A DNA stretch of 62,486 bases from IMG/VR virus record IMGVR_UViG_3300043395_001755, positions 1 to 62,486 of that record; one strand, given 5' to 3'. This DNA is from a virus. The position numbers were made by a program, and so were the translations under genes. This document shows, piece after piece, positions 3,021 through 21,272 of the stretch (position 1 is the stretch's first letter; every line of letters starts with the position of its first letter). The notes under the pieces are model-generated. The model made no database searches. It worked only from the letters and a program-made list of their open reading frames with translations, and had not been told where the DNA came from.

Positions 3021-3049
3021 AGTGTAAAGGAAATCTAAAATTTTGTCAA
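3021..3049 (-). promoter_or_regulatory. sigma70-like promoter of the porin gene
   Basis: TTGACA (3049-3044), 17 bp, TACACT (3026-3021). The -35 overlaps the stop codon of the last glycan-operon gene. The predicted transcript contains the 9-bp inverted repeat in its leader. Confidence 0.55.
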
Positions 3050-3843: not shown

Positions 3844-3844
3844 A

Positions 3845-5435: not shown

Positions 5436-5436
5436 T

Positions 5437-6294
5437 TCACTCTTCAATCCATTTATCGGGAATAAGATCACTCATATCATAGTGATTAAATTGAGGACCA
5501 AACCAATTCTTAGGAGCAACAACAGTTTTATTTGGATTATCAATTAACCATGCTCCCCACCAAGAATATGATGAATTAGCAATGATTGCATCTGTGCAAA
5601 GAGACATCAAACACAAATCAGTCCAAGGAACTCTCTGACCATCGGAAAATTCATCCGTAGTTTCTGATAGAATAAATCGATCAGGTTTAAAGAAGTCTTG
5701 TTCCTTACACCACTCAATTACATCAGAAAAAACAACGACAGGAATGTCTTCTGGAAAATGAGATAGTGCTCGTTCGTAATAATCCCAAGTTTGAACTGGA
5801 TGTGCATTTTGAAGATTTACATATGCCCAAGGAAGTTTTGGATCACCTCTTCGAATATGAAGAAAAATCTTTCTACCTCCACCAAGACTATCAATCATCT
5901 CCTTGCAAGGTTTATAAATCTCATCTTGAAATTGAAAGTCTTGACGAATTTCTTTTTCGATATTTGAAAAGTATTTTTCAGTCTGAAAATATCCATCAAG
6001 ATTTACATTATCTGGACAGTTATTAAAAAGATCTTCGTTAAAATGAAACTCTTTCCAAATTGCCCAAGGAAACTCTGTTGAAACCCCGTGATGTTCTGGA
6101 GTTGCATGAGTAAGTTTAAATGTATCAAACATACAATAGTTATTCTCACATCCAAACTCATCAACTCCTGAAGTTCCTGGAGGGGGAACAGACCAATCAA
6201 ATCCACGATTTGCAGCAATACCTCTTAGCGCGGCATACTGAAACATTTGGTTACCAAGTCTCCCCGATTTTCCTAACTTATTAAAAGTGAGCAT
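5437..6294 (-). CDS. Glycosyltransferase family 11, copy B
   Basis: A 285-residue paralogue of copies A and C with SGRLGNQMFQYAALRG near the N-terminus, FLHIRRGDPK as donor motif and NSSYSWWGAW near the C-terminus. The start is ATG 6294, which overlaps the previous stop as TGATG and follows a GGGAG ribosome-binding site; the longer reading frame to 6309 has no such signal. Probably an L-fucose or L-galactose transferase. The insert after the RRGD motif differs from copy A, suggesting a different acceptor. Confidence 0.87.
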   Translation of the reverse strand: MLTFNKLGKSGRLGNQMFQYAALRGIAANRGFDWSVPPPGTSGVDEFGCENNYCMFDTFKLTHATPEHHGVSTEFPWAIWKEFHFNEDLFNNCPDNVNLDGYFQTEKYFSNIEKEIRQDFQFQDEIYKPCKEMIDSLGGGRKIFLHIRRGDPKLPWAYVNLQNAHPVQTWDYYERALSHFPEDIPVVVFSDVIEWCKEQDFFKPDRFILSETTDEFSDGQRVPWTDLCLMSLCTDAIIANSSYSWWGAWLIDNPNKTVVAPKNWFGPQFNHYDMSDLIPDKWIEE

Positions 6295-7136
6295 CAAATT
6301 TTCTCCCAACGTTCAGGAACAAGATCTTTTAAATTAAAATGGTCATAGGCTTTTCCAAACCATTTCTGAGGAGCAATAACTTTACCTGCATCATTTTGCA
6401 ACCAAGCACCCCACCAACTCATACTACTATTAGCAATTATACCACCTTTACATAAACTCATCAAGCATAGATCCCAATAAGGAACCAATGACTGCTGAAT
6501 ACTTCCATCACCAAGTTTAATCTTGTTTGGATATTTAACATGATTCTCAGAGATCAAGAATCTGTCTGGTTTTAAAAATTCTTGCTCCTTTACCCAATCA
6601 AGAGTATCAGAAAACACAAGAACTGGAATATCATTATCAAATTTTTTTAGTGCTTCAATATAATATTCTGAACTTAATGTAGGATGATGATCTGGTGTTG
6701 CAACATAATCACCACGTCTAATATGTAAAAAAATACAATCACCAACAGATTCTATAATTTCTTTACAAGATTCAAAAATATCATCATTGAAGGTAAAGTC
6801 TTCACGAATTTCTTTATCAATATGCTTAAAATATCTTTCAGATTGAAGATACATATTAACATTTACATTATCCGGACAATTGTTAAAAAGATCTTCATCA
6901 AAATCAAATCTTCCAGTATCAATTGTTTGATAGGTTCCAAATCCCTTATTTTGGGGTTTTACATTGGACATTTTAAAACACTCAAATAATCCATAGTTGC
7001 AAGTAGACTCTGCATCCTCTGGAGGAATAATCCAATCAAATCCCCGATTAGAAGCTATTCCTCGAAAACTAGCATATTGAAACATTTGATTTCCCAAACG
7101 TCCATTAGATCCTAGATTATTATAAGTTATAGCCAT
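6294..7136 (-). CDS. Glycosyltransferase family 11, copy C
   Basis: A 280-residue GT11 enzyme with NGRLGNQMFQYASFRG, FLHIRRGDYV and NSSMSWWGAW. The ATG at 7136 (MAITYNNLG) aligns with the starts of the two paralogues and overlaps the preceding gene by 17 bp. Three tandem copies in one operon suggest that the phage builds a glycan with more than one alpha-linked deoxy- or L-hexose. Confidence 0.86.
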   Translation of the reverse strand: MAITYNNLGSNGRLGNQMFQYASFRGIASNRGFDWIIPPEDAESTCNYGLFECFKMSNVKPQNKGFGTYQTIDTGRFDFDEDLFNNCPDNVNVNMYLQSERYFKHIDKEIREDFTFNDDIFESCKEIIESVGDCIFLHIRRGDYVATPDHHPTLSSEYYIEALKKFDNDIPVLVFSDTLDWVKEQEFLKPDRFLISENHVKYPNKIKLGDGSIQQSLVPYWDLCLMSLCKGGIIANSSMSWWGAWLQNDAGKVIAPQKWFGKAYDHFNLKDLVPERWEKI

Positions 7137-7980
7137 ATTCTTTACTAATCTCTTTAAAAACTTTTGCAATACCTTTATCTAGAGATGTTTTTGGCATCCA
7201 CCATCCCATTATATAATTGTCAGCTTCGTTTCTCTTATCCAACTGAACACTATCTTTTGCTAGTCCGGGTTTAATCTTAACATCATACAGTTCAAGCAAA
7301 TTAAATTGTCCCTGAATCATTTCAGCAACAGATTTGATAGAATCACTACGGAAAGAAGTAACGTGTAGTGGATCTGTTGATTTAAAGTCACTATAACAAT
7401 TCATTATTGTTTCCAGTGCTTCACAGCAATCCTCTGCATAAAGAAATTGCCTTTCCTCAGTACCATCAGTCAGCATTTCAAACTGACCTTCTTCAAAACC
7501 TTTTCTGATAAAATCGGTGATGACATGAGACTTTTCTCTGTCATTCTCTACACCATACACATTCCAGAATTTTACAATGAGACCATTTAGAGATTTTGTA
7601 TACAACTCTCCTACATTTTTAAGAACACCATAAGGAGAGTAACTCATATTACTCATTTGAGAAGATGCAAAAACAAATCTTTTATTGTATTTTTTCAAAT
7701 ATCCAAAGACGTTTGCCATCAAACGAGTATTATTATTAATAAATTCAAAAGTATGTTGATACTTGGCAAGATAACGTGATCCACCAACATCAAATGCTAG
7801 GAAGAAAACAAAATCTGAATCAGATATTTTTTCTTCCAAATCCAAATTGGGAATTATCGATCCATCTTGTTCAGAACCATTAACAATATCAAATTCATAA
7901 ACTTGATGTCCTTTTTCAGAAAGATAATTTTTTAGGTACGCACCAATCTGTCCTTCAGATCCAAGAATAGTTACTTTCAT
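7120..7980 (-). CDS. NAD-dependent epimerase/dehydratase (extended SDR)
   Basis: A 286-residue nucleotide-sugar epimerase or dehydratase. The Rossmann motif GSEGQIGAY (7-15) and the catalytic Tyr117-x3-Lys121 (YGVLK) are intact. It resembles UDP-hexose 4-epimerases and ADP-heptose 6-epimerases in length and order. Lying 2 bp from the TalC-like gene and near a kinase and nucleotidyltransferase, it may act last in making the activated sugar, as HldD does for ADP-heptose. The exact reaction is not readable. Confidence 0.82.
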   Translation of the reverse strand: MKVTILGSEGQIGAYLKNYLSEKGHQVYEFDIVNGSEQDGSIIPNLDLEEKISDSDFVFFLAFDVGGSRYLAKYQHTFEFINNNTRLMANVFGYLKKYNKRFVFASSQMSNMSYSPYGVLKNVGELYTKSLNGLIVKFWNVYGVENDREKSHVITDFIRKGFEEGQFEMLTDGTEERQFLYAEDCCEALETIMNCYSDFKSTDPLHVTSFRSDSIKSVAEMIQGQFNLLELYDVKIKPGLAKDSVQLDKRNEADNYIMGWWMPKTSLDKGIAKVFKEISKEYGYNL

Positions 7981-7981
7981 T

Positions 7982-8653
7982 TCAGTTTATCCAAGATGAA
8001 AAATCTTTATTAAAGCGTTCAACTGCTTCATCTGTTTTGGGATGGAGAGCCATCTCTTGAATAACTGGTAGCCCAGTTGTTACAATGTCTGCACCATAGT
8101 CCCAAGCATCAGAAACATCTTGCTGAGTACGAATACTACCAGCAATAATCTGAGTATCTAGTCCATTTTCTAGAATATATTTTTTTGTACGATTCAAAAC
8201 TTTTTCAACATCTCCACCGTGTTGTTTCAAACGGCAATAAAAAAGAGAAACATACTTTGCTCCAGCAGATGCACAAAGATGAAGTTGCTGCTCACTATAG
8301 CAAGCAGTGGCGTTAATTCTAACACCAGTATTTGAACAAGTTTTGATCGCTTTAAGTTCCTCAAATCCAACAGGAATTTTTACATGAAGTTGAGGACAAA
8401 TGTTAGAAAATTTTTCATAAATTTCACATGCTTGTTTAACAATTGCATCATATCCTTCAGCAAAAACCTCAACACTCAAAGACAAATTTTCAGAACCACA
8501 GTATTCAGCAAGTCCTTGAATCAGAGAATCAAAACTTCCTTTTGGTTCTTTAGCAATAATTGATGGGTTAGTGGTAACACCTTGAATGGAACCCATTTCA
8601 TTGGCTTCAATAATTTCAGAAAGATTTGCAGTGTCAGCAAAAAGATAATTCAT
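7982..8653 (-). CDS. talC: TalC/fructose-6-phosphate aldolase-type transaldolase
   Basis: A 223-residue class I aldolase of the short transaldolase family. It has FADTANLSEI at the N-terminus, GVTTNPSII (25-33), the Schiff-base lysine in HVKIPV (Lys92), and GSIRTQQDV with ADIVTTGLPV at the phosphate site. Cyanophage talC usually serves the pentose phosphate pathway. Here it sits inside the glycan operon between a cupin gene and an SDR gene, so it may instead make or interconvert a sugar phosphate (for example sedoheptulose-7-phosphate) for activation. That role is inference. Confidence 0.87.
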   Translation of the reverse strand: MNYLFADTANLSEIIEANEMGSIQGVTTNPSIIAKEPKGSFDSLIQGLAEYCGSENLSLSVEVFAEGYDAIVKQACEIYEKFSNICPQLHVKIPVGFEELKAIKTCSNTGVRINATACYSEQQLHLCASAGAKYVSLFYCRLKQHGGDVEKVLNRTKKYILENGLDTQIIAGSIRTQQDVSDAWDYGADIVTTGLPVIQEMALHPKTDEAVERFNKDFSSWIN

Positions 8654-9075
8654 TCGTCCTCTTTAAATAGATAAGTTTTTCCATCTTCAACGATGTTTGA
8701 ATCTTCATCATCGTCTTTATTTGACCATTCTATCACAACTGTGTCTTCTAATGCAATACGCATATGCATAAGACCAGGAGGGATATGGAACACATCCCCT
8801 GTTTGTAAAATGATTGATTTATTTTTGGCACGACCAATTCTCATACCAACTTTAAGTTTACCGGATTGAATATAATAATATTCATCCTTCGTAACATGAT
8901 ACTCCATACTACTTTGAGTATCTTTTTTCATAAAGACTTCTTTTAAGGTAAAGTCATCAGAAGCAAATATAGTAGTTATATAACCCCAATATTTTTCTCT
9001 TCTTTCTTCACATTTTAAAATTGGTGGAAGTTCTTTTCTTCCATAATTATTGTCCGTAGTATTTGTTGATTCCAT
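8650..9075 (-). CDS. Cupin-fold sugar-phosphate isomerase/epimerase-like protein
   Basis: A 141-residue single-domain cupin. Cupin motif 1 is HVTKDEYYYIQSGKLKV and motif 2 is GDVFHIPPGLMHM, so the metal-binding His/Glu set is present. It resembles the C-terminal domain of mannose-6-phosphate isomerase and small sugar isomerases. ATG 9075 is preferred to 9111 because the upstream part merely runs back into the previous gene. It is coupled to talC by a 4-bp overlap. The substrate is unknown. Confidence 0.75.
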   Translation of the reverse strand: MESTNTTDNNYGRKELPPILKCEERREKYWGYITTIFASDDFTLKEVFMKKDTQSSMEYHVTKDEYYYIQSGKLKVGMRIGRAKNKSIILQTGDVFHIPPGLMHMRIALEDTVVIEWSNKDDDEDSNIVEDGKTYLFKEDE

Positions 9076-9739
9076 TTTTTCTTTCAAAGTGTTTAGTATA
9101 AAGAACTTCACTCAAATGAGTTAATTCAATTTTTGGATTAATTCTAGTAGTATAATATGCCATTTCTGCGACTTCTTCTAAAACCAGAGCACAATCTAAG
9201 GTTCTCTTAGGAGAATCAGAAAAGACCATTGATCCATGACAAGGTAAAAGAATTGCTGGTATATTTAATGGATTAATTTTATGAAATTGAAAATAATCAA
9301 CTACGCTTTGACCAAGGTTTTTTTCATATTGAGATAATTCTTTTTCTTCAAGTTGTCTTGCTAAAGGAATATCTGATAAAAAATAATCAGCATGAGTTGT
9401 TCCCAAAATGGGAATTGGTTTTAACGCTTGAGCCCAAGACGTAGCAAATTTTGAATGGCTATGTATTATAGATTTTATTTCAGGAAATGCTTTGTAAATT
9501 TCTAGATGAATATCTGTATCGACAGATGGTTTCATTCCAGAAATTTGCTTTCCAGTATAAAGTTCTATGATGGAGATCTCACTAAAAGTGAGATCATCAA
9601 AACTTACTCCAGATGGTTTAATTGCAATGTATTTTCCATCTTCGGAAAGAACGCTTGCATTTCCCCAAGTTAACTTAACTAAATTATTTTCTTTTAAACT
9701 CTTATTTAAATAAAGACAATCTTCAATTGTTTTGTTCAT
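9047..9739 (-). CDS. Class II aldolase/L-ribulose-5-phosphate 4-epimerase-like (AraD family)
   Basis: A 230-residue zinc enzyme. WGNAS (25-29), HSHSKFATSWAQ with zinc ligands His93 and His95, GTTHADYF and LPCHGSMVF (third histidine) match AraD closely, as does the C-terminal YTKHFERKNGINKYYGQ. AraD epimerises L-ribulose-5-phosphate to D-xylulose-5-phosphate; relatives cleave sugar phosphates. Start ATG 9739 is taken from the family alignment. Placed between a PfkB kinase and a cupin, it probably supplies or edits the sugar phosphate for activation. Confidence 0.83.
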   Translation of the reverse strand: MNKTIEDCLYLNKSLKENNLVKLTWGNASVLSEDGKYIAIKPSGVSFDDLTFSEISIIELYTGKQISGMKPSVDTDIHLEIYKAFPEIKSIIHSHSKFATSWAQALKPIPILGTTHADYFLSDIPLARQLEEKELSQYEKNLGQSVVDYFQFHKINPLNIPAILLPCHGSMVFSDSPKRTLDCALVLEEVAEMAYYTTRINPKIELTHLSEVLYTKHFERKNGINKYYGQ

Positions 9740-10511
9740 GAAAATCACTTGAAACATACTTTGCAGATTGTTCATTAGCAAATTCTGGATTACCAGATGC
9801 TAAAAGAGCTGCGTAAAAACAATCTCCTGCACCAATTGTATTTAGAACTTTATCTACAGGGTACGCTGGATAACTAATTCCATTCATTTCGCAACCAGAA
9901 TCACCTTTTGTAACACAAATGTTTGTTTTTCTATCAACGTAAGTAGACTCATTTTTATTGCAAACGATATAATCAATATCCCAATACCTATCATAATTAG
10001 AAGACTTACTTGATATCTGAGAAGATGCATAAGTAATCTTTCCAGATTTTGTACAGTTTAGAATAAAAGAATCTGTAATAAATCCACATCTGTAGTCAGC
10101 AAAAGCAATAATATCAAACTCAGATACATCATAGTCTAATAATAAAGAATACGAAAACTCTTCATTTACATTGTTAACTTGAAGATATTTGTATGTTTCA
10201 TCTCCGTGATGCACCCAGTATCTTGTTTTTATATTATTGTTACCTTGATAAAAATTAAGAACTTTAACAGTGGGATTATTCTGTTCAAATAAAAAATTAT
10301 GTTCATCTGACAGAGATGTCATAAAGGTTACATCCCTATTAAATGTTGCTAAAAATTTTGCAACATTCGCAGCTCCACCATAATTAATTTTACTATGACT
10401 ATAATTAGTTTTTATAGTTGGAGATTCCAATGAGAGTCCAGATGCTTTTAGGTAAACATTTTCATCAATGATAGTATCACCAACAACTAAAAATTTTAGA
10501 TTTTCTCGCAC
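9723..10511 (-). CDS. PfkB-family carbohydrate kinase (HldE kinase-domain-like)
   Basis: A 262-residue ribokinase-fold kinase. VVGDTIIDENVY (9-20), SLESPTIKT, GGAANVAKFL (45-54) and the catalytic NTIGAGDCF (224-232, base Asp230) are present. The N-terminal pattern, with S-x-E-x-P after the first strand and GGAANVA, resembles the kinase half of HldE, which phosphorylates D-glycero-D-manno-heptose-7-phosphate at C1. It starts at GTG and is about 40 residues shorter than typical PfkB kinases. The preceding gene encodes the nucleotidyltransferase half found fused to this kinase in HldE. Confidence 0.82.
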   Translation of the reverse strand: MRENLKFLVVGDTIIDENVYLKASGLSLESPTIKTNYSHSKINYGGAANVAKFLATFNRDVTFMTSLSDEHNFLFEQNNPTVKVLNFYQGNNNIKTRYWVHHGDETYKYLQVNNVNEEFSYSLLLDYDVSEFDIIAFADYRCGFITDSFILNCTKSGKITYASSQISSKSSNYDRYWDIDYIVCNKNESTYVDRKTNICVTKGDSGCEMNGISYPAYPVDKVLNTIGAGDCFYAALLASGNPEFANEQSAKYVSSDFHEQNN

Positions 10512-11356
10512 GTTTCCATACTCCGAATCTTTTGCATAGTATTAGTTGTAGAATAATCACCAACTAATGGATAAACTTTTACTTGAATATTTTCGGGTAT
10601 AACATCTCTTTTTCTGACTTCATCGGCAGTCCACTCAGACCCCTTAACAATTACGTCGGGCAGTAATGTTTCATAAAGGTTTTGGAGTTCATCTGTGGAA
10701 TTAAAAACAACAACCTCGTCCACATACCTATTCGCTTCTAAAACCTTCCTGCGGTCTTCTTGATTATTGACTGGTCGATTGTTTCCCTTCAATTCTTTCA
10801 CTCTGAGATCAGAGTCAATAGCGACAATGAGTTTTGTTCCTTGACTCTTAGAAAATTTAAGAAGCTCAATGTGACCTTTATGAAGAATGTCAAACACTCC
10901 ATTCGTCAAAACAATGCCAGTATGGGAATCAATTTTTTCAACTCTTTTAACATGACGACCCTCTCCCCATGCTTCATCTAACCACATTTTAGTCATCTCT
11001 CTCATTTCAATCTGAGAGGATAACCAAGATCCCAAGCAGAGTACATTTGAATTATTATGTTCTCTAGACTTAACTGCTGTTAATTCATTATGTGCAAGAA
11101 CAGCACGAACTCCTGAAAACCGATTAGCAACAATGCTCATACCAACACCAGTTCCACAAATAAGGATTCCCCTATCTGCTTCCCCACTTCCAACAATTGT
11201 AGATAACTGTGCTGCATAATCAACATAATCTACACTAACTTCTGGTGTATAAGGTCCAATATCAATTACTCGATAACCTTCACCTTTAAGATATGTTTTT
11301 AGTTGTTGCTTGTTTTCAACACCATTATGATCAGATGAAATAATAATTGTTTTCAT
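10496..11356 (-). CDS. Fusion: RpiB-type sugar-phosphate isomerase plus HldE-type nucleotidyltransferase
   Basis: A 286-residue two-domain protein. Residues 1-140 are RpiB/LacAB-like: SSDHNGVENK at the start, ICGTGVGMSIVANRF with catalytic Cys68, and SREHNNSNVLCLGSW. Residues 148-286 are a cytidylyltransferase-like domain with TNGVFDILHKGHIELL (HxGH at 159-162), DEVVVF, VIVKGSEW and YSTTNTMQKIR. The second domain matches the adenylyltransferase half of HldE/RfaE. The fusion would join aldose-ketose isomerisation to nucleotide activation. ATG 11356 is used because RpiB begins there. The sugar made is unknown; ADP- or CDP-activated heptose or pentose are candidates. Confidence 0.85.
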   Translation of the reverse strand: MKTIIISSDHNGVENKQQLKTYLKGEGYRVIDIGPYTPEVSVDYVDYAAQLSTIVGSGEADRGILICGTGVGMSIVANRFSGVRAVLAHNELTAVKSREHNNSNVLCLGSWLSSQIEMREMTKMWLDEAWGEGRHVKRVEKIDSHTGIVLTNGVFDILHKGHIELLKFSKSQGTKLIVAIDSDLRVKELKGNNRPVNNQEDRRKVLEANRYVDEVVVFNSTDELQNLYETLLPDVIVKGSEWTADEVRKRDVIPENIQVKVYPLVGDYSTTNTMQKIRSMETCEKI

Positions 11357-11357
11357 T

Positions 11358-12071
11358 TTAAAATTCTTCCTCGTTTGGACAAAGTTCTCTCCAAGTATCC
11401 CTATCATACTCGATAAATTCCCAAGGTTTCTTGAACAAATTATTGATTTGAGAATTGGAAAATTTATAATGTCTTGGATGACAAGTCATTTTTTTAGACT
11501 TCAAGTTTAGAGTTTCAATTACATACAAGATAGAAGTATCTACCGTATGAATTTCTTCCGCATTTTCAAAAATCCAAGCCCAATCAAAAACTGTCACTCC
11601 TTCAAAAATTTCCAGTTTAATAATTTTTCCATCGTAATTCTTTGGAATAGAATTCACAACTCCATTGTGTTTTTGACCAGGACCGTAAGTATCATTATAA
11701 AAAATAAAAGGTTCTCCCTCTGACAAATTAAAATGCTGTCGAAGTGCATTTTCTATATCAGTATTTCTATCATACTTTACATAATCTGCCCAATCACTCC
11801 AATCCATTCCAATGGAAGTATATTTTATCCTCATCAACTCAGTATCACTTCTATGAGTCAAATCACATAATTTAATAACTTCTCCACCCCTAACATTTTT
11901 AGGAGATGAAGGTCCGATTACTGCGGATGTTTTAACTCTACTAATTCCATTATTCCAAAAAGTTGGAGCAACCTGCCAATAGACAGTCCCTTTTTTGGAT
12001 AACTCTTCTGCTATTTTTATAGTAAACAAGATATCACCAAGACATCCAGGTTGATCAATACAATAATCCAT
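11358..12071 (-). CDS. GT9-like (heptosyltransferase-like) protein
   Basis: A 237-residue protein without a clear family assignment. The N-terminal QPGCLGDILFTIKIAEEL resembles the donor-domain start of GT9 heptosyltransferases (G-x-L-G-D-x-L-x-T). Near the C-terminus EEIHTVDTSILYVIETLNL resembles the GT9 segment that contacts the nucleotide. It is shorter than LPS heptosyltransferases (about 320-350). Directly upstream of the HldE-like genes, it could be the transferase for that sugar. ATG 12071 follows the previous stop by one base; ATG 12080 is an alternative. Confidence 0.5.
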   Translation of the reverse strand: MDYCIDQPGCLGDILFTIKIAEELSKKGTVYWQVAPTFWNNGISRVKTSAVIGPSSPKNVRGGEVIKLCDLTHRSDTELMRIKYTSIGMDWSDWADYVKYDRNTDIENALRQHFNLSEGEPFIFYNDTYGPGQKHNGVVNSIPKNYDGKIIKLEIFEGVTVFDWAWIFENAEEIHTVDTSILYVIETLNLKSKKMTCHPRHYKFSNSQINNLFKKPWEFIEYDRDTWRELCPNEEEF

Positions 12072-12072
12072 A

Positions 12073-12804
12073 TCAAACATCAAAAAGTATATTTACAGCT
12101 CTTTTGTTTTTACACTCAAATTTTTTCCACACTTCCTCTTTAACATACTTAGGATTAATATACCAGTCCTCAAACATATCTTCGTCTGTTATATGACACA
12201 CGTTTTCGCAAACAAGAATATATCCATTTTGTTGCATAATATCCTTCATATGATTTTTTAGTTCGTAACCCCTACTATAGAGATCATGCTCAAATGTTAC
12301 GACTGAAAAATCAAACTTAGAGAAGTTGATTTTATCCAAAACAGCATAGGTGGCTGATTCTGAATCGATATCAATTTGCAAGTAGTCAACGTGATTGTTG
12401 TCATACTGACTTAACAAGTGATCATAATCAATCAATGATGCATCGTTTTGAAAAACTGGGTTCTTCCTAGATTTTTCAAAAACTTTAGTTCTAGCAGGAT
12501 CAATATCTACAGAAACACCAGTCCAATCAAATTCTGTTTCCAACAAATATGTATTATTAATTTCAACAGGGTAACTGCATCCCAACTCCAGATAAGTACC
12601 TTCTCTTTTTTCTTCTAAAACACTTAATACAAAGATATCTTGAAAAGCCTGAGAATAAGAAGATGTTGCAGAAATATCATGCTTTAGTTCACCAAATCCC
12701 CAATGAATCATTTCCTCAGGAGAACTTGCGTTTTCAACAGGAGTATATTCTCTCCAGTTTGGATTTAATTCTGGAAGTCTTCCAATTGTTCTTATTTTTG
12801 TCAT
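12073..12804 (-). CDS. FkbM-family methyltransferase-like protein
   Basis: A 243-residue SAM-dependent methyltransferase fold. Key segments are SQAFQDIFVL, GTYLELGCSYPVEINNT (motif I), WTGVSVDIDP (motif II) and VDYLQIDIDSES. These match the FkbM group, which O-methylates sugars and antibiotics. In this operon it most likely methylates a sugar hydroxyl of the product glycan. It is preceded by the UDP-sugar dehydrogenase gene with a 1-bp gap. Confidence 0.78.
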   Translation of the reverse strand: MTKIRTIGRLPELNPNWREYTPVENASSPEEMIHWGFGELKHDISATSSYSQAFQDIFVLSVLEEKREGTYLELGCSYPVEINNTYLLETEFDWTGVSVDIDPARTKVFEKSRKNPVFQNDASLIDYDHLLSQYDNNHVDYLQIDIDSESATYAVLDKINFSKFDFSVVTFEHDLYSRGYELKNHMKDIMQQNGYILVCENVCHITDEDMFEDWYINPKYVKEEVWKKFECKNKRAVNILFDV

Positions 12805-12805
12805 C

Positions 12806-14035
12806 TTATTTTAATATTCCCCAATAGTCTACTACATTTACTCTAGTATAGTCAAATTGCTGATATCTTTTATCTGGATGCATAATAACAACTACTTCAG
12901 AATTATCAATACATTCTTGAACTTGATTGCAGGTTTTGACTTTCATATTTTGGAAAAAGTCCAAATTTTCAAAAGTTTCCTCAATAAAATCATGGCAGTA
13001 AATTTCTTTTCCATGCAATTTGAGATCCATTATTAGGTTAACACTTGGAGATCCAATTGTTACAGGAGAGTTTGGTTTAAAAGAAATACCTAAGATTGCA
13101 ATTTTTTTATAGGTCTTAACCTTATCAAAAATACTCTGATAAACCATAAAGTTTACTTCTTCTGCAAAAATCAAATGCTTTGCAATTTTTTTCCTATCTT
13201 CAGCAAACTTAATAAAAGCAGTAGTATCTCTCGGGAAGCAAGTTCCTCCATAGGGAGTACCGTATCCAAAAAAGTATGGAGATATTCTTTTATCTAAACC
13301 AATGGTACTAGTGATGTTATGAACATCTACATTTTTAATTCCATCACATAGTTGTCCCAAAAAATTAGCAAATGTAATCTTATTTACGATAAAAGCATTT
13401 AGAGCAACTTTAGAAATTTCTGCTTCCTCAAGAGTTAGAATTCTTTCTGGTGGATTATTTTCATGAAACCCTTCCCAAATAGATTTGGTAAGATCTACAT
13501 CTCGATCATTGTTTGCGCCAACTAGGAAAAATTCTGGATTCCTAAAGTCTTTGATTACACTACCAAGTTTTACAAAATCAGGAACGTAAGAGAACCCAAA
13601 ATCTTGCTCATACTTTTTACCAGAAACATCCTCAACCAATTTAATGAGTTTGCTAATAGTTCCAGGAAGAACTGTGGATGAAAGAACTATTAAATGATAG
13701 TCTTTTGTAGAGGTTTTAAATTGTTGAGAAAACTCCTCTAATACTTTTTCAACAATTAGAGAAGAATATCCACCATTTTCATCTTGAGTATTAACCAATA
13801 TGATTGTAGAATCAGTCTTTTCAAAAATATCATCATAAGAATCTGTAAATCCGATAAAGTTTGAATAATCAAAAACTTCATCAAGTTCAGGTTCATAAAA
13901 AGGCAACTCTTGCCGATTTAATTTATCAATGAAATATTTGTTTTTATCTATTCCTAAAATTTTATTTCCAGAATTTGATAAACATGATGCTAAAGGCAAT
14001 CCAAGTTTTCCCAATCCAATAAAACTAACATTCAT
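12806..14035 (-). CDS. UDP-glucose/GDP-mannose 6-dehydrogenase family
   Basis: A 409-residue NAD-dependent nucleotide-sugar dehydrogenase that makes a UDP-uronic acid (or GDP-mannuronic acid) by two-step oxidation. It has the N-terminal Rossmann motif IGLGKLGLPLA (6-16), the central-domain Lys209 in EISKVALNAF, and the catalytic Cys266 in GGTCFPRD. The C-terminal UDP-binding domain has ILGISFKPNSPV. All catalytic residues are intact. ATG 14035 is used rather than TTG 14041. It gives the glycan a negatively charged sugar. Confidence 0.88.
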   Translation of the reverse strand: MNVSFIGLGKLGLPLASCLSNSGNKILGIDKNKYFIDKLNRQELPFYEPELDEVFDYSNFIGFTDSYDDIFEKTDSTIILVNTQDENGGYSSLIVEKVLEEFSQQFKTSTKDYHLIVLSSTVLPGTISKLIKLVEDVSGKKYEQDFGFSYVPDFVKLGSVIKDFRNPEFFLVGANNDRDVDLTKSIWEGFHENNPPERILTLEEAEISKVALNAFIVNKITFANFLGQLCDGIKNVDVHNITSTIGLDKRISPYFFGYGTPYGGTCFPRDTTAFIKFAEDRKKIAKHLIFAEEVNFMVYQSIFDKVKTYKKIAILGISFKPNSPVTIGSPSVNLIMDLKLHGKEIYCHDFIEETFENLDFFQNMKVKTCNQVQECIDNSEVVVIMHPDKRYQQFDYTRVNVVDYWGILK

Positions 14036-14037
14036 AA

Positions 14038-16527
14038 TCAATCTTTTTCCATGAACTCTTTTATAGACTCTACTATGTAGAGATTTTCTTCTTTGGTCTT
14101 TCCAGCAATTCTAACAAAAGTATTGCGATCAATTCCCATTCCTATCTTATCATCCATACTTCTGACATAGATTCCTTTTTCAATCAACATCCAACAAACA
14201 AAATCAAAAGATTTTTTTGTCTTGAGATCGATTAAGAAAAAGTTGGTTTTCGAAGGATAAACATCAATTCCATCAATTTTAATTAATTCATTATAAAACT
14301 CATTAAATTCATCCAAAAACTTAACTCTTGTTTTTTCATAGTCATCAATAAATGACTTATCAGAAAGTAAACTAAAAAAGTATTCAGAAATTCCATTAGA
14401 ATTCCATAGGAAACCTTTTTGAATGGAGTATTCAACTTTTTCTTTTGACATTATAGCATATCCACACCTGATTCCAGCAATACCGAAATCTTTAGACATA
14501 CTCTTAATAACTACTAGATTTGGATATTCTAGAACCAATTCACCAACAGATACAGTATTAGGGTCTTCTTTTGAAACAAAATGAAGAAAACTTTCATCGA
14601 TTATAATTGTATCTAAGTGTTTTAGTTCAGATAAAATATCTTTAATTTGATTTTTAGAAATATAATGGCCTGTTGGATTATTTGGATTTACAAGAAGTAA
14701 ATTATTTGAACCAGTTCTTTTTACTTCTGATACGACATCTTCAAATGTTGTTAAAGGTTTTTGACTCTGAACAATTTCACATTCCTTGTTAAATTCATAA
14801 TAAGATGAAAAGGTAGGAAGTCCTATTAGCATCTTACCTTTCATATTGTTCATAACCTTTTCAATGATTTCGATTGCACCATTTCCAACTAAAATATTTT
14901 CAGCAGGAACATCAATGTAACTCGAAATCTTTTTAGAAACAAATTTATTTTGCTGCGGATAAAGTTCTAAGTAGTTTCGAATATTATTTGAAGAGATTAG
15001 GTCTTCATTGAATTTTCTAAGAAAAAGATCTGTGGCGTAAGGATTGCTCAAAAAACAAGCATCAATGTTACATTGAATTTCTGGAATATATTCTATAATA
15101 GTATTAATACTAGGAGAGTGTGTGCCATTTTGCTCCTTCAATTCATACAACTTTTTATACAAATCCTCTGTAGGAGTTTTGTTGGAAAGATTATTAATAA
15201 TACATCTAATTTTTCCAGTAGACTCATTTCTCTTAATTTCACGAACCTTGTTTATTTTAAAGTTTAGATTTCCAAGACGTGATGTAAGACCTTCTCGAAT
15301 TTGAGGAATAGTTTGTTCAGTGTACTTAGAACTTCCAACAAAACTAAAGACAACTTCTTTCCTACTCTTTTGAACGATTTGGAACATTGAAACACCAGGA
15401 ACTCTTTTATCAATCCAACTATAAAAGTTTACTCCAGGTAATCTAGATCCATCTTCAGCAATCAAAATATCACTTGTTCTTCCATTGATTGAAGAAACCT
15501 TATCAAATCCTTTTGCATCAGGATTTAAAACTACACTATCCTCTGTTCTATATCTAAGAAAAGGCATGTAATAATTTAAAAATCCAGTTCCAACTATAGT
15601 ATGAGTCCCATCTCCTTCATCAACATATTCAGTGATACCATACTGAGGGACCTCGTAATATCTTCCATCATCCTCTTTTTGATACATAAAAGAAACTTTT
15701 TCTATTGCACCATAATGAGCAACAGGAACAATTCCAAATACTTCAATTATTTTACTCCTCCACTCAGGTAGCATCATTTCAGAAGAAACGTGAATCTTTT
15801 GAATATGATCAAGTTTAAGATTATGTTCCTCACATAAACAAGCCAGGACATAAGCACTTGATGGATATGCAACCAATGTGTGATATTTTTTGGAGTTAAT
15901 TTCTTTAATGTAATTGTGAATTGTATCATCATTTAGATGATACGCAGACATATAAAGTCTTTTTAGTTCATAGTCATAATACCAAAGATCAGAATCTCTC
16001 TCTACTGGAACATATCTCCGTAACCAAACACTTGGTTTATCATACAAATTAGCATCATGCTTTTCATAGGCACGAAGAACAAAGGCAGCCTCTTTCTTAT
16101 AGACATCATCAGTTCCATAAAAAACCAATTTCTTACCAGTAGAACCACTTGTTCTAAACTCATAAGATTTTTTGTCTTTCATATTTGTAGAGATTAGATC
16201 GTTTAGATTTTCTCTAATAATATCTTTAGTAAGAAATGGAAGTTTTGTGATGTCAGATAACTTTTGAAAATCATCTGGAGTTAACCCTCTATCACTAAAA
16301 ACTTTAGTATAGTATGGGACATTTTCATAACAATGATTGATCAACTTTTTAAACTCTTTAAGTTGATAATCTTCAAGTTGCGCTTTACTCCACTGTTCAC
16401 TTTCTAAAAGAAAATTATAGGTTTCATTAAAAACTCTTCCATACCTTTTAGAAAAAGGAACTAAGTTATAATAAAATCTCTGGATAAAGAAAGGAGACTT
16501 TTTAATTAGAGATTGTAGACTTGCCAT
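14038..16527 (-). CDS. Fusion: CapK/PaaK-like adenylate-forming enzyme plus class I/II aminotransferase
   Basis: An 829-residue two-domain enzyme. Residues 1-450 resemble the CapK/phenylacetate-CoA ligase family, with the ATP-binding FRTSGSTGKK (124-133), HYGAIEKVSF, RTEDSVVL and NGRTSDIL. Residues 475-829 are a fold-type I PLP enzyme like histidinol-phosphate aminotransferase: NPNNPTG (614-620), IIIDESF with Asp644, and PLP lysine Lys679 in SMSKDFGIAGIRCGY. Both halves look catalytically complete. CapK proteins occur in capsule loci and are thought to activate an acid for transfer. Together the two domains might activate and attach an amino or acyl group to a uronic acid (inference). Confidence 0.82.
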   Translation of the reverse strand: MASLQSLIKKSPFFIQRFYYNLVPFSKRYGRVFNETYNFLLESEQWSKAQLEDYQLKEFKKLINHCYENVPYYTKVFSDRGLTPDDFQKLSDITKLPFLTKDIIRENLNDLISTNMKDKKSYEFRTSGSTGKKLVFYGTDDVYKKEAAFVLRAYEKHDANLYDKPSVWLRRYVPVERDSDLWYYDYELKRLYMSAYHLNDDTIHNYIKEINSKKYHTLVAYPSSAYVLACLCEEHNLKLDHIQKIHVSSEMMLPEWRSKIIEVFGIVPVAHYGAIEKVSFMYQKEDDGRYYEVPQYGITEYVDEGDGTHTIVGTGFLNYYMPFLRYRTEDSVVLNPDAKGFDKVSSINGRTSDILIAEDGSRLPGVNFYSWIDKRVPGVSMFQIVQKSRKEVVFSFVGSSKYTEQTIPQIREGLTSRLGNLNFKINKVREIKRNESTGKIRCIINNLSNKTPTEDLYKKLYELKEQNGTHSPSINTIIEYIPEIQCNIDACFLSNPYATDLFLRKFNEDLISSNNIRNYLELYPQQNKFVSKKISSYIDVPAENILVGNGAIEIIEKVMNNMKGKMLIGLPTFSSYYEFNKECEIVQSQKPLTTFEDVVSEVKRTGSNNLLLVNPNNPTGHYISKNQIKDILSELKHLDTIIIDESFLHFVSKEDPNTVSVGELVLEYPNLVVIKSMSKDFGIAGIRCGYAIMSKEKVEYSIQKGFLWNSNGISEYFFSLLSDKSFIDDYEKTRVKFLDEFNEFYNELIKIDGIDVYPSKTNFFLIDLKTKKSFDFVCWMLIEKGIYVRSMDDKIGMGIDRNTFVRIAGKTKEENLYIVESIKEFMEKD

Positions 16528-16840
16528 TAAAGAAATCCTCAGAATTTATTGCTTTATCATCAACATAATAATCAGCAGAAAATTTCACCCCTGTTCTAAG
16601 AGAAGTAAATTTAAGACCCCAAGAACGAAGTTGATCAAAAGTTTGTTCGTAATGATTTATTTTTGAACTACAACCTCTGGCAGTCTCTATTATTATAATA
16701 TGACCCTCTTGCCATAATTTGTTTACAAAATCAATTCTATCATAATATGGAGTTGCTTCATAGTAGTTCCATTTACCATCCTCTCCAAGTTGAGTATCGC
16801 ATAGAGTGTGATCTAAATCGATTATATATGTCTTTTTCAT
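16502..16840 (-). CDS. Small HAD-superfamily phosphatase
   Basis: A 112-residue HAD-fold protein with motif I DLDHTLCD (8-15), where the two aspartates are nucleophile and acid/base, motif II around IIIETARG, and a late acidic motif in YYVDDKAINSEDF. There is no cap insert. Such small phosphatases accompany capsule loci. In an HldE-like route one is needed to remove the distal phosphate (the GmhB step), which this protein could do. It overlaps both neighbours by 4 and 26 bp. Confidence 0.75.
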   Translation of the reverse strand: MKKTYIIDLDHTLCDTQLGEDGKWNYYEATPYYDRIDFVNKLWQEGHIIIIETARGCSSKINHYEQTFDQLRSWGLKFTSLRTGVKFSADYYVDDKAINSEDFFNGKSTISN

Positions 16841-18420
16841 TTTTCTACGATAAAGTCTTCGGTAACAAGAAAATCAAGTTCAGTTTCTTTAAGAACAAAG
16901 AAAGCATCTTCATAAGTAGTTAATATTGGTCTACCTTTGATATTAAAGGAAGTATTTAATATAACTGGAATTTTTTCAATATTATTCATCTCAGTTAAAA
17001 TATCATAAAACAATTCATGTTGCTCTTTTCTAACTGTTTGTAGTCTACTTGTATTATCTGCGTGAGTGATAGATGGCAACAACTCTCTATACTTTTCTTT
17101 TACAACAGGAGCGTAACTCATATAAACAGACTCATACGCATCATCAAAGTAAAGATTTCTATCTTCATATCTACAAACAGGAGCAAAGGGTCTAAACCAT
17201 TCTCTAAATTTAACTTTAGAGTTCAGCACATCCTTCATGTCAGCAAAAGAAGGATCGCAGATGATACTTCTATTACCCAATGCTCTAGGTCCAACTTCAG
17301 AATATCCTCTAATAATACCACCAATTTTACCTTGAGATATTAAATTTACGATCTTTTCTACCGAAACATCTTGAAATTTGAATTGTGATTTATATTCTTG
17401 AATTTTTTGTCTATCTAGAATATCAAAATTTCCATATACAACTGGATCTATTTTTTCTTGAACTTCTAAAAGATATTGTCCGAGAGATAATCCACAGTCA
17501 TTTGGATTTGGTGGAACATAGAAATTATAATTTCTCTCATTTAGATATTTTTTTAGTTTTTGATTAACTAAAACATTAAGAGCACATCCACCAGTAAAAA
17601 CTAAATTTGTAGTTTCTTTATATGAAATGATTTTTTCTAAGAGAGAAAATACTAATTTTTCAAAAGCATACTGAGATGTAGCAGCAAAATCGAAACTCAT
17701 TTGACCACTCAATGAGTCTTTAGATAGATCAATTCCCAATTTAAACTGTAAAACATTAAAGTTATCAGATTCAGTATGATTTTGATACGTAGAAAAGAAT
17801 TCAACTAGTGGTTCAATCCACTCATCTACAATATTACCATATGCACATATTCCCATAGTTTTTCCTGCCCATGCCAAACCATTACCAGTTTTAGGAATTT
17901 CTGAGATTGGAACAGCAATAGCCCTATAGGCACACCCAAGATTAATATCAACTCTATCATATGGAGTGATTCCATTATTATCACCATAAAAGAATCTAAC
18001 GGTGGTGGAAATGTTATCATCAACTCCACCACCATCAACAGACAAAATTAATGCTTCATCAAATGGTGACTGGTAGAATCCACATGCTGCGTGAGAGATG
18101 TGGTGCCATACTTGTTTTCTCTTGGAATTGGGGAAATGTTTAGTAAAGATTGGATCATCTTTCTCTGTAAATCCATTGTAAAGAATGACTTCAGGTTCAG
18201 AAATTATATTGTCCTTAATATAAGAATAGAATTGATCTCTAATAATATCATCTGTGCCTAGATCATCATGCTCTGCATTCTTTCCAAGAGCAGCATATCT
18301 GATATTAGAAATTCTTTCATATTCCAGAACTCTTAATTGATTATTTTTATCAACAAAGGTGACATTAGAATCATGAGATCCATACAAACTTAAAACTTTA
18401 TGGTCTTTTACACTTTTCAT
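16837..18420 (-). CDS. NodU/CmcH-family O-carbamoyltransferase
   Basis: A 527-residue carbamoyltransferase. The N-terminal Kae1-like domain has YGSHDSNV, HHISHAACGFY (metal ligands, 106-116) and SVDGGGVDDN. The C-terminal YrdC-like region has GYSEVGPRALGNRSI and LNTSFNIKGRPI. NodU, TobZ and relatives transfer a carbamoyl group from carbamoyl phosphate to a sugar hydroxyl using ATP. Related genes are common in cyanophages. Here it should decorate a sugar of the operon's glycan. Confidence 0.88.
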   Translation of the reverse strand: MKSVKDHKVLSLYGSHDSNVTFVDKNNQLRVLEYERISNIRYAALGKNAEHDDLGTDDIIRDQFYSYIKDNIISEPEVILYNGFTEKDDPIFTKHFPNSKRKQVWHHISHAACGFYQSPFDEALILSVDGGGVDDNISTTVRFFYGDNNGITPYDRVDINLGCAYRAIAVPISEIPKTGNGLAWAGKTMGICAYGNIVDEWIEPLVEFFSTYQNHTESDNFNVLQFKLGIDLSKDSLSGQMSFDFAATSQYAFEKLVFSLLEKIISYKETTNLVFTGGCALNVLVNQKLKKYLNERNYNFYVPPNPNDCGLSLGQYLLEVQEKIDPVVYGNFDILDRQKIQEYKSQFKFQDVSVEKIVNLISQGKIGGIIRGYSEVGPRALGNRSIICDPSFADMKDVLNSKVKFREWFRPFAPVCRYEDRNLYFDDAYESVYMSYAPVVKEKYRELLPSITHADNTSRLQTVRKEQHELFYDILTEMNNIEKIPVILNTSFNIKGRPILTTYEDAFFVLKETELDFLVTEDFIVEK

Positions 18421-19307
18421 TTTAAATAATTTCTATAAATATAATCTTCTATGGTCTGCTCAGTCAGAGCAATTTCATAGTTTTCTTTCACTGCATCATA
18501 ATGGTCTTTATAATATTCTTCTGTTAAGCATTCTGAATTAAAAGAAAGAACTCCATTTTCATCAGGAAGAATCATAATTATACCATCAATATTATAGAAA
18601 TCACCAATATCTGGAGCACCATAATAAATTGGAATTGTTCCAGTCAAGAAACAATCATGAATCTTTTCAGTGTAATAAGATTCGTAAGAATCATTCTCAA
18701 GACAAAACTGGAACATATAATCTTTAAGAGTTTCTAGTTTTGTAGGTGCATACTTAAAGTCTGCACCATAACCATACATATCAACTTGTCCTGTCTTCTC
18801 CAACTCTCTTGCAAATTCTAAGCGAAGTCTATGCCCTTCACTCATTACCTTATCAGAAACACAGCAAGAAACTAATTTTGTTTTTTCAAACAAACCATTT
18901 TCTTCAACAAGCGCCCCTTGACCAGGAATAAATTTAAAGAAGTCGGGATTACTTTGAATTAACTCTTTGTCGTGAGTGAAAATATATTCATAGGCATCAA
19001 TATATGGTTGAGGATTTCTTTTAATTTCTAAAGTCGTAGGATTATACCATCTAGGTTCAAAAAGAATTCCATACTTTTTTGAGCTCTTTTTATCTTGCAA
19101 TCCAAGAGCAATTAATCTTTCAGTATAAAAAGTTTCATCTCCCTCAGAAAGATTATTAAAAGTTTTCATATAGTTTCCATGACCTTCGTGAATCCATTCA
19201 ACATACTCAGGTACACGGTTTAGTGCAATATATCCATTTTGTTTTCCAAGTTGACACGTTCCCTTATAACAAAAAGTATCGTCAACTAATTTAAACTCTT
19301 TTTTCAT
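18417..19307 (-). CDS. Glycosyltransferase family 10 (alpha-1,3-fucosyltransferase-like)
   Basis: A 296-residue protein. The GT10 signature is clear at about 205-230: FCLENDSYESYYTEKIHD, then CFLTGTIPIYYGAPDI. This is the GDP-sugar binding site of alpha-1,3/1,4-fucosyltransferases. The N-terminal half is not recognisable. With the GT11 copies, it adds a second type of fucosyl-like linkage enzyme. It overlaps the carbamoyltransferase gene by 4 bp. Confidence 0.83.
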   Translation of the reverse strand: MKKEFKLVDDTFCYKGTCQLGKQNGYIALNRVPEYVEWIHEGHGNYMKTFNNLSEGDETFYTERLIALGLQDKKSSKKYGILFEPRWYNPTTLEIKRNPQPYIDAYEYIFTHDKELIQSNPDFFKFIPGQGALVEENGLFEKTKLVSCCVSDKVMSEGHRLRLEFARELEKTGQVDMYGYGADFKYAPTKLETLKDYMFQFCLENDSYESYYTEKIHDCFLTGTIPIYYGAPDIGDFYNIDGIIMILPDENGVLSFNSECLTEEYYKDHYDAVKENYEIALTEQTIEDYIYRNYLK

Positions 19308-19319
19308 TATTAACTCCCA

Positions 19320-20219
19320 TTAAAGTCCATTAAATTGTAAAAGATCAGAAAATAAACTAAAACTAACCGAAGGATTCATCGATAGAGCTCCCAAAAACAT
19401 ATTACTACTAGATCCAATAATATGGTTACATTTACTCGAAAGAATTACATCCATTAAGCAATACTCAATCTCCTCAAGATAATCTTCATGATTCATTGTT
19501 TGACTTACTCCAATCCAATCAATGTCATGTGAAAGTCTTTTAGGTCTTTCTGGTACAATACATTTATCTCCAAAAACTTTTACAAATTCATCAACAAATG
19601 GTTGAACTTGAGTAGTGATTAAAACACTATCATAATCATCCATTTTTAATTTAACATCACTAATAATAGATTCTAACATTTGTTGTGGTCTATGTCCATA
19701 TCCCTCATAGTGTAGTGATGTTCTTACCATTGCACATAATGTTTTGTTTGATAAGATATTTTCTTCTGATTCAATTTTTTTATAAAATGAATCATTTAGT
19801 TTAAACTTTGACCAACTTTTATTATATAAAGATCTAATGTCATTTAAAATATCTGGATCTTTATATTGTTCTTTATAAAATCCTTTACCAGAATACTTGG
19901 ATAAACAATATGGTATTTTTATTTCGTTAATATCAGAAGGATAAAGATGAGTAAAAAGATATTCTTCTGGATATTTTTCGTTTAGAATTTCACTTTCTTC
20001 AAAAAATTTCAAATAGAAGTTTTTCTCCAAAAAATTTTCAGGAAGATCTTTAGAAGAAACTAGATTTCCAACCAAATATTTTTCATCATAAATTCCAGTT
20101 TTGTTGGTTGTATGAAAATGAAGTTTGATATTATTTTCTTCACATACAGACAACCAAGAAAAAAACCCTATGAGAGTGCTGAAAACACCAGAAGAATTTG
20201 TTATTACAAAATTTTCCAA
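19320..20219 (-). CDS. Probable glycosyltransferase, O-fucosyltransferase/NodZ-like fold
   Basis: A 299-residue protein with weak but ordered resemblance to GT-B fucosyltransferases. ALCAMVRTSLH-type segment (CAMVRTSLHYEGYG) takes the place of the GDP-binding arginine strand, followed by DSVLITTQVQPFVDEF and, near the C-terminus, EYCLMDVILSSKCNHIIGSSSNMFLG. The last segment is like the LLSK-x-D-x-x-I-G-x-x-S-S-N block of GT23/GT68. The arginine motif is degenerate, so the donor is uncertain. Confidence 0.5.
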   Translation of the reverse strand: MENFVITNSSGVFSTLIGFFSWLSVCEENNIKLHFHTTNKTGIYDEKYLVGNLVSSKDLPENFLEKNFYLKFFEESEILNEKYPEEYLFTHLYPSDINEIKIPYCLSKYSGKGFYKEQYKDPDILNDIRSLYNKSWSKFKLNDSFYKKIESEENILSNKTLCAMVRTSLHYEGYGHRPQQMLESIISDVKLKMDDYDSVLITTQVQPFVDEFVKVFGDKCIVPERPKRLSHDIDWIGVSQTMNHEDYLEEIEYCLMDVILSSKCNHIIGSSSNMFLGALSMNPSVSFSLFSDLLQFNGL

Positions 20220-20222
20220 AAA

Positions 20223-21272
20223 TCAACTCCTGTTAACAATTTGCTCAGAAATCCAATTATAGGTTTTACGAATCCCTTCTTCAAGAGTCTGAGAATAATC
20301 CCATCCAAGTTTTTCGCGAATCAAATCATTATTCGAATTACGTCCACGAACTCCAAGAGGACCATCAATATGATTCTTTCCTACTACTTTACCAGAAACT
20401 TTAGCAGCAGTATCTACAAGTTGGTTAATGGTAACCATTTCTTCAGAACCAATATTCACTGGTCCAATGAAATCAGATTCCATCATTCTACGTGTTGCTT
20501 CAATACATTCGTCAATGTACAGGAAGGAACGAGTTTGTAGACCATCTCCCCACACATCGATTGTTCCACCTTCCTCTGGAAGGTAGGCAACTTTACGGCA
20601 GATTGCTGCAGGTGCTTTTTCTCTTCCACCTTCCCAGGTTCCTTCTGGTCCGAATATATTATGGTATCTAGCAACACGTACAGCAATATTATAGTTGCGA
20701 TGATAAGCAAAGTAGAGACGTTCCGAGAACAGTTTTTCCCATCCATATTCAGAATCTGGGTTAGCAGGATATGCGGACTCTTCACGACAATCTGGATTGT
20801 CTGGGTCTAGTTGATTATGCTCTGGATACATGCAAGCAGATCCAGAATAAAAGATTTTGGTTTTGTTTACACCTTTAGTCTCATTTAGTTGGTGCTGCGC
20901 TTCAAGAACGTTCAGATTAATAGTTGCAGAATTATGCATAATATCTGCATCATTCTCACCAGTGAAGACAAATCCAGCGCCACCCATATCAGCAGCAAAC
21001 TGATAGATTTCATCAAAAGGTTCAGCAAACTTATCTACAATCTGTCGATAGAAATTACCAAGATATCCAGTAAAACGAAGGCATCGCTCAACGAATCTCA
21101 GGTCTCTTAAATCTCCTTGAATAAATTCATCTGCCTCAGAAATTGAATATTCTGGGTACTTAAGGTCTACACCGCGAACCCAATATCCTTCTGCCTTCAA
21201 TCTTTTTACCATGTGGCTTCCAATAAAACCACCAGCACCAAGTACAAGTGCCGTCTTTTTATAATCACTCAT
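20223..21272 (-). CDS. GDP-mannose 3,5-epimerase-like
   Basis: A 349-residue extended SDR. It has the NAD motif GAGGFIGSH (12-20), AADMGGAGF (93-101), FYSGSACMYP with Cys147, YGWEK with Tyr176 and Lys180, and REKAPAA with Lys219. The Cys and Lys pair is 72 residues apart, as for the acid/base pair of plant GDP-mannose 3,5-epimerase. The enzyme would make GDP-L-galactose or GDP-L-gulose from GDP-mannose. It is the first gene of the long glycan operon. A UDP-sugar epimerase is less likely given the GME-specific motifs. Confidence 0.85.
   Translation of the reverse strand: MSDYKKTALVLGAGGFIGSHMVKRLKAEGYWVRGVDLKYPEYSISEADEFIQGDLRDLRFVERCLRFTGYLGNFYRQIVDKFAEPFDEIYQFAADMGGAGFVFTGENDADIMHNSATINLNVLEAQHQLNETKGVNKTKIFYSGSACMYPEHNQLDPDNPDCREESAYPANPDSEYGWEKLFSERLYFAYHRNYNIAVRVARYHNIFGPEGTWEGGREKAPAAICRKVAYLPEEGGTIDVWGDGLQTRSFLYIDECIEATRRMMESDFIGPVNIGSEEMVTINQLVDTAAKVSGKVVGKNHIDGPLGVRGRNSNNDLIREKLGWDYSQTLEEGIRKTYNWISEQIVNRS

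Follow-up and report, generated by a model that had tools for sequence, protein, structure and literature searches.

A phage-encoded fusion of a CapK-type ligase and a serine-phosphate-decarboxylase-type enzyme as a candidate for glucuronamide-type glycan decoration

The window analysed here, the whole 62,486-nucleotide stretch of viral DNA, encodes a protein in which a CapK-type adenylate-forming domain is joined to a PLP-dependent domain (Table 1). Our analysis suggests, at a probability of roughly 0.7, that this fusion would carry out two successive steps in a glycan decoration of the glucuronamide type, with the neighbouring HAD phosphatase and nucleotide-sugar dehydrogenase supplying the others. 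In the proposed scheme, the C-terminal half would decarboxylate L-serine-O-phosphate to ethanolamine-O-phosphate, as its clade and active-site signature indicate; the N-terminal half would use ATP to adenylate a glycan-bound glucuronic acid residue at its C6 carboxylate and would then couple the amine to that carboxylate with release of AMP, a step suggested by gene context, motifs and PaaK-type precedents; the HAD protein would strip the phosphate to leave the ethanolamide; and the dehydrogenase, judging from its family, would provide UDP-glucuronate to the glycosyltransferases. The likeliest use of such a module would be remodelling of host surface glycans during infection, for example to block co-infection, with decoration of the virion as the alternative. 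With somewhat less assurance, we also lean towards the broader view that this widespread phage cassette encodes an AMP-forming uronic acid amide ligase of a new class, fused to or paired with amine-making enzymes that can be exchanged (a serine-phosphate decarboxylase or an aminotransferase), and that phages could thereby install ethanolamide or serinolamide on host or virion glycans.

Table 1. Features of the fusion gene and its surroundings, with positions in the window.
Feature	Position	Strand	Evidence
Glycan-biosynthesis operon around the fusion	3046..21272	-	Pfam
Nucleotide-sugar (UDP-glucose-type) 6-dehydrogenase	12806..14041	-	TIGR03026; UDPG_MGDP_dh domains (Pfam)
CapK-type ligase and serine-phosphate-decarboxylase-type PLP enzyme, one 829-aa fusion	14038..16527	-	ORF; gap-free six-member alignment; dN/dS
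C-terminal L-serine-O-phosphate-decarboxylase-type PLP domain, residues 456-829	14041..15162	-	6oux match; tree; DESFxHF
PLP lysine K679 (SKDFGIAG)	14491..14493	-	Sequence; alignment
N-terminal PaaK/CapK-type adenylate-forming domain, residues 1-447	15187..16527	-	NF045666; TIGR02155; AF2; Foldseek
A10 lysine K439	15211..15213	-	Conserved in all CapKs aligned
ATP-binding P-loop SGSTGK, residues 127-132	16132..16149	-	Sequence; motif conservation
Small HAD phosphatase, 112 aa	16502..16840	-	TIGR01689 (below cut-off); motifs; Foldseek

The fusion is a single ORF that begins with ATG and runs through 829 codons with no internal stop, both in the ORF list and in the record sequence. Full-length homologues were found in five other IMG/VR viral contigs (81–83% identity), and the six proteins align over 829 columns with zero gaps. 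The intact 829-residue fusion described in a preliminary description of this DNA is thus upheld, and the missed stop or frameshift between the halves that it had raised as a concern was found neither in the ORF nor in the six-member alignment. Against the homologue in contig L003, dN/dS was ~0.08 for the N-terminal and ~0.10 for the C-terminal half (this one pair was used, dS being saturated in the remaining pairs), and both halves are under purifying selection. The window also encodes a DNA polymerase with 84.5% identity to its Synechococcus phage S-SM2 counterpart, and the window is therefore a fragment of a T4-like cyanophage. At positions 1459-2955 there is a phage-encoded SLH and OprB porin, an outer-membrane protein of cyanobacterial type.

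The N-terminal half belongs to the PaaK/CapK branch of the ANL adenylate-forming enzymes. Its adenylation motifs are S127-G-S-T-G-K132, YGxxE (272-276), D330, GR350 and K439; the P-loop, YGxxE, A7 Asp, A8 Arg and A10 Lys were invariant in 11 phage CapKs, bar a few P-loop swaps, and the P-loop, YGxxE, RYxTxD, GRxxD and K439 were retained throughout the phage CapK family. The SGSTGK-type P-loop was retained in phage CapKs and in decarboxylase-linked bacterial CapKs. With all catalytic motifs present, the adenylate-forming CapK-like domain is intact, as had been proposed, and both SGSTGK and the Lys679 of the other half lie at the residues originally given. Profile searches matched NF045666 (DVU_1553 family, 3e-21) and TIGR02155 (PaaK, 3e-20), both below the curated cut-offs; the TIGR02155 score of 72 bits, against a cut-off of 646.3, places the domain outside the PaaK phenylacetate-CoA ligases as that model defines them, and the Pfam AMP-binding domain gave no match in this half. 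The AlphaFold (AF2) model of the domain (pLDDT 87) retrieved PaaK-family structures at the top of the Foldseek list (4r1m, E 1.9e-26; 2y27; 2y4o), with NatL2 and ClxA appearing lower. NatL2 is a PaaK-family enzyme that makes an ester without CoA (PMC7204872) and ClxA is a reported amide ligase that also makes esters (PMC12519233); since both couple directly, the PaaK fold has precedents for joining an acid to a nucleophile directly. A CoA step by the CapK half may also occur, the family being named for CoA thioester formation.

The C-terminal half matches PF00155 (Pfam) and is a PLP protein of fold type I. A HisC-like aminotransferase had been suggested for it, an identity rejected on score, tree and active-site signature; among characterised enzymes, L-serine-phosphate decarboxylases are closest to it. 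The best solved relative in a PDB search was 6OUX (285 bits, E 1.4e-83; runner-up 90 bits), a threonine-phosphate-decarboxylase-like enzyme which we take to be SMUL_1544, and a Sulfurospirillum relative (39% identity) encoded in a cobamide operon carries the annotation norcobamide serine-O-phosphate decarboxylase. In a tree of 55 PLP enzymes built with IQ-TREE (where, as in the other comparisons, Cj1436 and Cj1437 were represented by positional equivalents and not by their own sequences), the C-terminal half lay within a 33-member clade (support 100/99) that includes the norcobamide serine-phosphate decarboxylase and the decarboxylases of bacterial capsule-type loci, with the HisC-like rows falling outside it. 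The signature that marks this clade, DESFxHF, is present in the fusion, Phe replacing the Tyr of aminotransferases (DEAY). The top NCBIfam model by bits was TIGR01141 (HisC), at 151.1 bits against a cut-off of 276.55, and the score for CobD was also below the curated cut-off. Because of the gap in score behind 6OUX, the clade, the DESFxHF signature and the scores short of the HisC and CobD cut-offs, this half is read as probably an L-serine-phosphate decarboxylase making ethanolamine-phosphate, and its resemblance to HisC is at the level of the fold.

The operon around the fusion encodes GT25, three GT11 proteins, GT10, epimerases, an FkbM methyltransferase, a carbamoyltransferase and sugar-phosphate enzymes (Pfam), several of the glycosyltransferases being of fucosyltransferase type. 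The HAD gene shares 26 bp with the start of the fusion gene, and the dehydrogenase gene, whose ATG is possibly at 14035, abuts the fusion gene, the nucleotide-sugar dehydrogenase, serine-phosphate-decarboxylase-type and HAD functions thus standing together at positions 12806-16840. The HAD protein matched TIGR01689 with an E of 0.0013, below the cut-off; it has all catalytic motifs (DLDxTL, T53, K86 and DD94-95), which were invariant in 15 aligned proteins; Foldseek matches (9iqw, 3e-6; 1xpj, 2.5e-5) showed likeness to small capsule-type phosphatases, and the solved structure nearest to it is that of an arabinose-diphosphate phosphatase from a phage. The dehydrogenase passed the TIGR03026 cut-off (251.7 bits against 189.8). 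No ATP-grasp ligase was detected in the window operon (Pfam) or in the cassette loci, and the phage CapK is, from sequence, the only candidate for an ATP-dependent ligase in the cassette. Between positions 7982 and 11407 lie genes for an RpiB-HldE-type nucleotidyltransferase fusion, a PfkB kinase, an AraD-like epimerase, a cupin and a transaldolase, which look like a phage-encoded NDP-sugar pathway.

A search with the phage CapK alignment recovered 35 other IMG/VR contigs with a cassette CapK, near-duplicates included (e.g. L176-L179 and L190). Among relatives, the trio of HAD, fusion and dehydrogenase is constant and the flanking genes vary. The HAD gene was upstream of CapK, within ~1.3 kb, in 34 of the 35 contigs and the dehydrogenase gene downstream in 34, the two exceptions (one without HAD, one without dehydrogenase) being contigs cut at the end. 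The PLP partner was a fused decarboxylase in five contigs and a probable cut sixth, a separate decarboxylase in four, a distinct aminotransferase in 23 and unrecognised in two, the latter (L166 and L167) being HAD-CapK-dehydrogenase cassettes with no recognisable PLP enzyme. The aminotransferase version, with a separate PLP enzyme, was observed across L140-L159, L168-L187, L190 and L193. The phage cassette aminotransferases group (100/100, IQ-TREE) with one bacterial aminotransferase, from a locus (L116) in which the order ATP-grasp, aminotransferase, decarboxylase, HAD is the same as that of Cj1438C-Cj1437-Cj1436-Cj1435, and in these related phages the decarboxylation step would be replaced by an aminotransferase that probably makes serinol-phosphate. 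Such a swap of ethanolamine- and serinol-type enzymes, with the HAD-CapK-dehydrogenase core unchanged, is an exchange that an amine-tolerant amide ligase would permit. No acyltransferase is part of the conserved cassette in the 35 contigs.

In the phage collection, no isolate carried a cassette CapK at >26% identity. The 'histidinol-phosphate aminotransferase' of Synechococcus phage S-SCSM2R was considered as marking an isolate with the cassette and was rejected, with no CapK or HAD gene adjoining it; matches in 'Acinetobacter phage MD-2021a' were left out, its large contigs with paaK and hisC (CAKLQF02/CAKLQH02) being apparently bacterial chromosome filed as phage. Other arrangements were also seen: a viral contig (L091:9136-10539) has the decarboxylase beside a 467-aa protein with an ATP-grasp-like half and a HAD half, and in the phages L136, L138 and L139 larger ORFs (381-606 aa) carry the small HAD domain at their N-terminal end. 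One cassette lies on a viral contig of 254,743 bases (L179), with near-identical copies in L176-L178 and L190. Fused and unfused proteins aligned poorly in one set of 34 rows (A5), which was excluded from structure prediction.

A ligase gene was present near the decarboxylase in 20 bacterial loci; it was of the ATP-grasp type in 15 and CapK in five, and no locus had both; the ATP-grasp ligases were RimK-like, ATPgrasp_ST or TupA, and included one GT2-TupA fusion like Cj1438. A HAD gene adjoined the decarboxylase gene or lay at most 100 bp from it in 16 of the 20 loci. In three of the CapK loci (L119, L120 and L121), all flavobacterial pairs of CapK and decarboxylase, a PHP-domain gene lies beside CapK in place of the HAD gene, which suggests a swapped phosphatase, and the stretch read of another locus (L017) contained neither; in L009, only a stop codon separates CapK from the decarboxylase gene, the two sharing a reading frame. 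Among 399 sampled genomes from the family of G001, CapK was directly upstream of the decarboxylase in four of the five decarboxylase-bearing genomes, and six control CapKs from this sample that were not decarboxylase-linked had no cassette partner within 8 kb and were without YGQxE(K/R) and VPxVNF-type motifs. Identity between flavobacterial and phage CapKs was only ~30%. Decarboxylase loci without a ligase were a cobamide operon (L018), L012 and L015. The last two, from Desulfobacteraceae and Parachlamydiales MAGs, have a same-clade decarboxylase whose surroundings are recognisable as neither a polysaccharide nor a cobamide locus.

Activation followed by amination or amide formation on a uronic acid had been put forward in the preliminary description. 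Amide formation is strongly backed by gene context, namely the conserved cassette and a parallel pathway in Campylobacter jejuni, whereas amination is not, since the C-terminal half lies in the serine-phosphate decarboxylase clade and therefore should supply ethanolamine-phosphate and not transaminate the sugar. According to two papers that review earlier findings on the C. jejuni capsule (PMC11800397; PMC11800379), Cj1436 decarboxylates L-serine-phosphate to ethanolamine-phosphate, Cj1437 transaminates dihydroxyacetone phosphate to serinol-phosphate, the TupA-like ATP-grasp enzyme Cj1438C joins the amine in amide linkage to the C6 carboxylate of bound glucuronate, and the HAD enzyme Cj1435 removes the phosphate after amide formation. 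One of them (PMC11800397) states that the ligase rejects UDP-GlcA and acts on glycosidically bound GlcA, and a UDP-uronic acid is therefore probably not the direct acceptor in the phage pathway.

With PaaK acyl-CoA ligases as its nearest folds and HMMs, the CapK half could be a conventional acyl-CoA or acyl-AMP ligase activating some small organic acid for N-acylation of an amine or sugar, uronic acid not being its substrate. We regard this as unlikely: the conserved cassette has no acyltransferase, the genes conserved with CapK encode a phosphatase and an enzyme that makes uronic acid, ATP-grasp ligases occupy the place of CapK in bacterial loci, and control CapKs of other clusters are without the cassette partners. 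Lower still is the likelihood that the C-terminal half is an aminotransferase, whether HisC-like or one that forms serinol-phosphate or an amino sugar; the Pfam match and the rank of HisC among NCBIfam models would agree with this, but the curated HisC cut-off was not reached, the match to 6oux has three times the score of the runner-up, the domain sits in the decarboxylase clade apart from both HisC-like rows and phage cassette aminotransferases, and its PLP tyrosine is replaced by Phe, as in decarboxylases. It is highly improbable that the cassette modifies phage DNA by amidating a carboxylated base, in the manner of CmoA/CmoX/CmoY of cyanophage S-B43. Carboxymethylated cytosine is indeed amidated by cyanophages and the HAD protein resembles a phage-encoded enzyme acting on arabinose diphosphate; however, the SPPC motif of CmoX was found in none of the ORFs of the window or of 11 cassette loci checked, CmoY is asparagine-synthetase-like and not a CapK, and the cassette is set among glycosyltransferases, with a UDP-sugar dehydrogenase.

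In the literature covered, which leaves out most subscription journals, we found neither a phage glucuronamide module nor a uronic acid amide ligase of the CapK type described. If the glucuronamide reading is true, the adenylate-forming CapK family, whose frequent presence in polysaccharide clusters is for the most part unexplained, would include amide ligases that replace ATP-grasp amidoligases, and the fusion would link such a ligase to its own amine source in one chain. Phages, T4-like cyanophages included, would then carry a complete glucuronate decoration module for surface glycans, offering a testable case of phage remodelling of host receptors.

Compared with known systems, the C-terminal half shares its clade and active-site signature with the SMUL_1544-type norcobamide decarboxylase (PDB 6OUX), from which it differs in being fused to CapK and in lying in a glycan cluster with no cobamide genes nearby. 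The N-terminal half has the fold and all five adenylation motifs in common with PaaK, NatL2 and ClxA, but it scores far under the curated PaaK values and has its own YGQxE/VPxVNF motifs, and aromatic acids are, in contrast to those enzymes, predicted to be unlikely substrates. Like CmoA/CmoX/CmoY of cyanophage S-B43, the cassette is phage-encoded and is proposed to use ATP to form an amide on a carboxylate handle, although its ligase is from another family, no CmoX was found and its context is glycan rather than DNA. The closest parallel is in the set of steps common to the cassette and the C. jejuni capsule pathway (Cj1435, Cj1436/Cj1437, Cj1438C, Cj1441), both having a UDP-glucose dehydrogenase, a serine-phosphate decarboxylase or separate aminotransferase, an ATP-dependent ligase (in the phage, a candidate) and a HAD phosphatase. 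The phage ligase candidate is of the PaaK/CapK AMP-forming type, whereas that of C. jejuni is a TupA-like ATP-grasp enzyme; unlike the latter, it is fused to the decarboxylase and phage-borne, and the phage HAD protein (~110 aa) is shorter than Cj1435 and of another subfamily. We read the phage module as a variant of the known C. jejuni-type pathway rather than a new kind of pathway.
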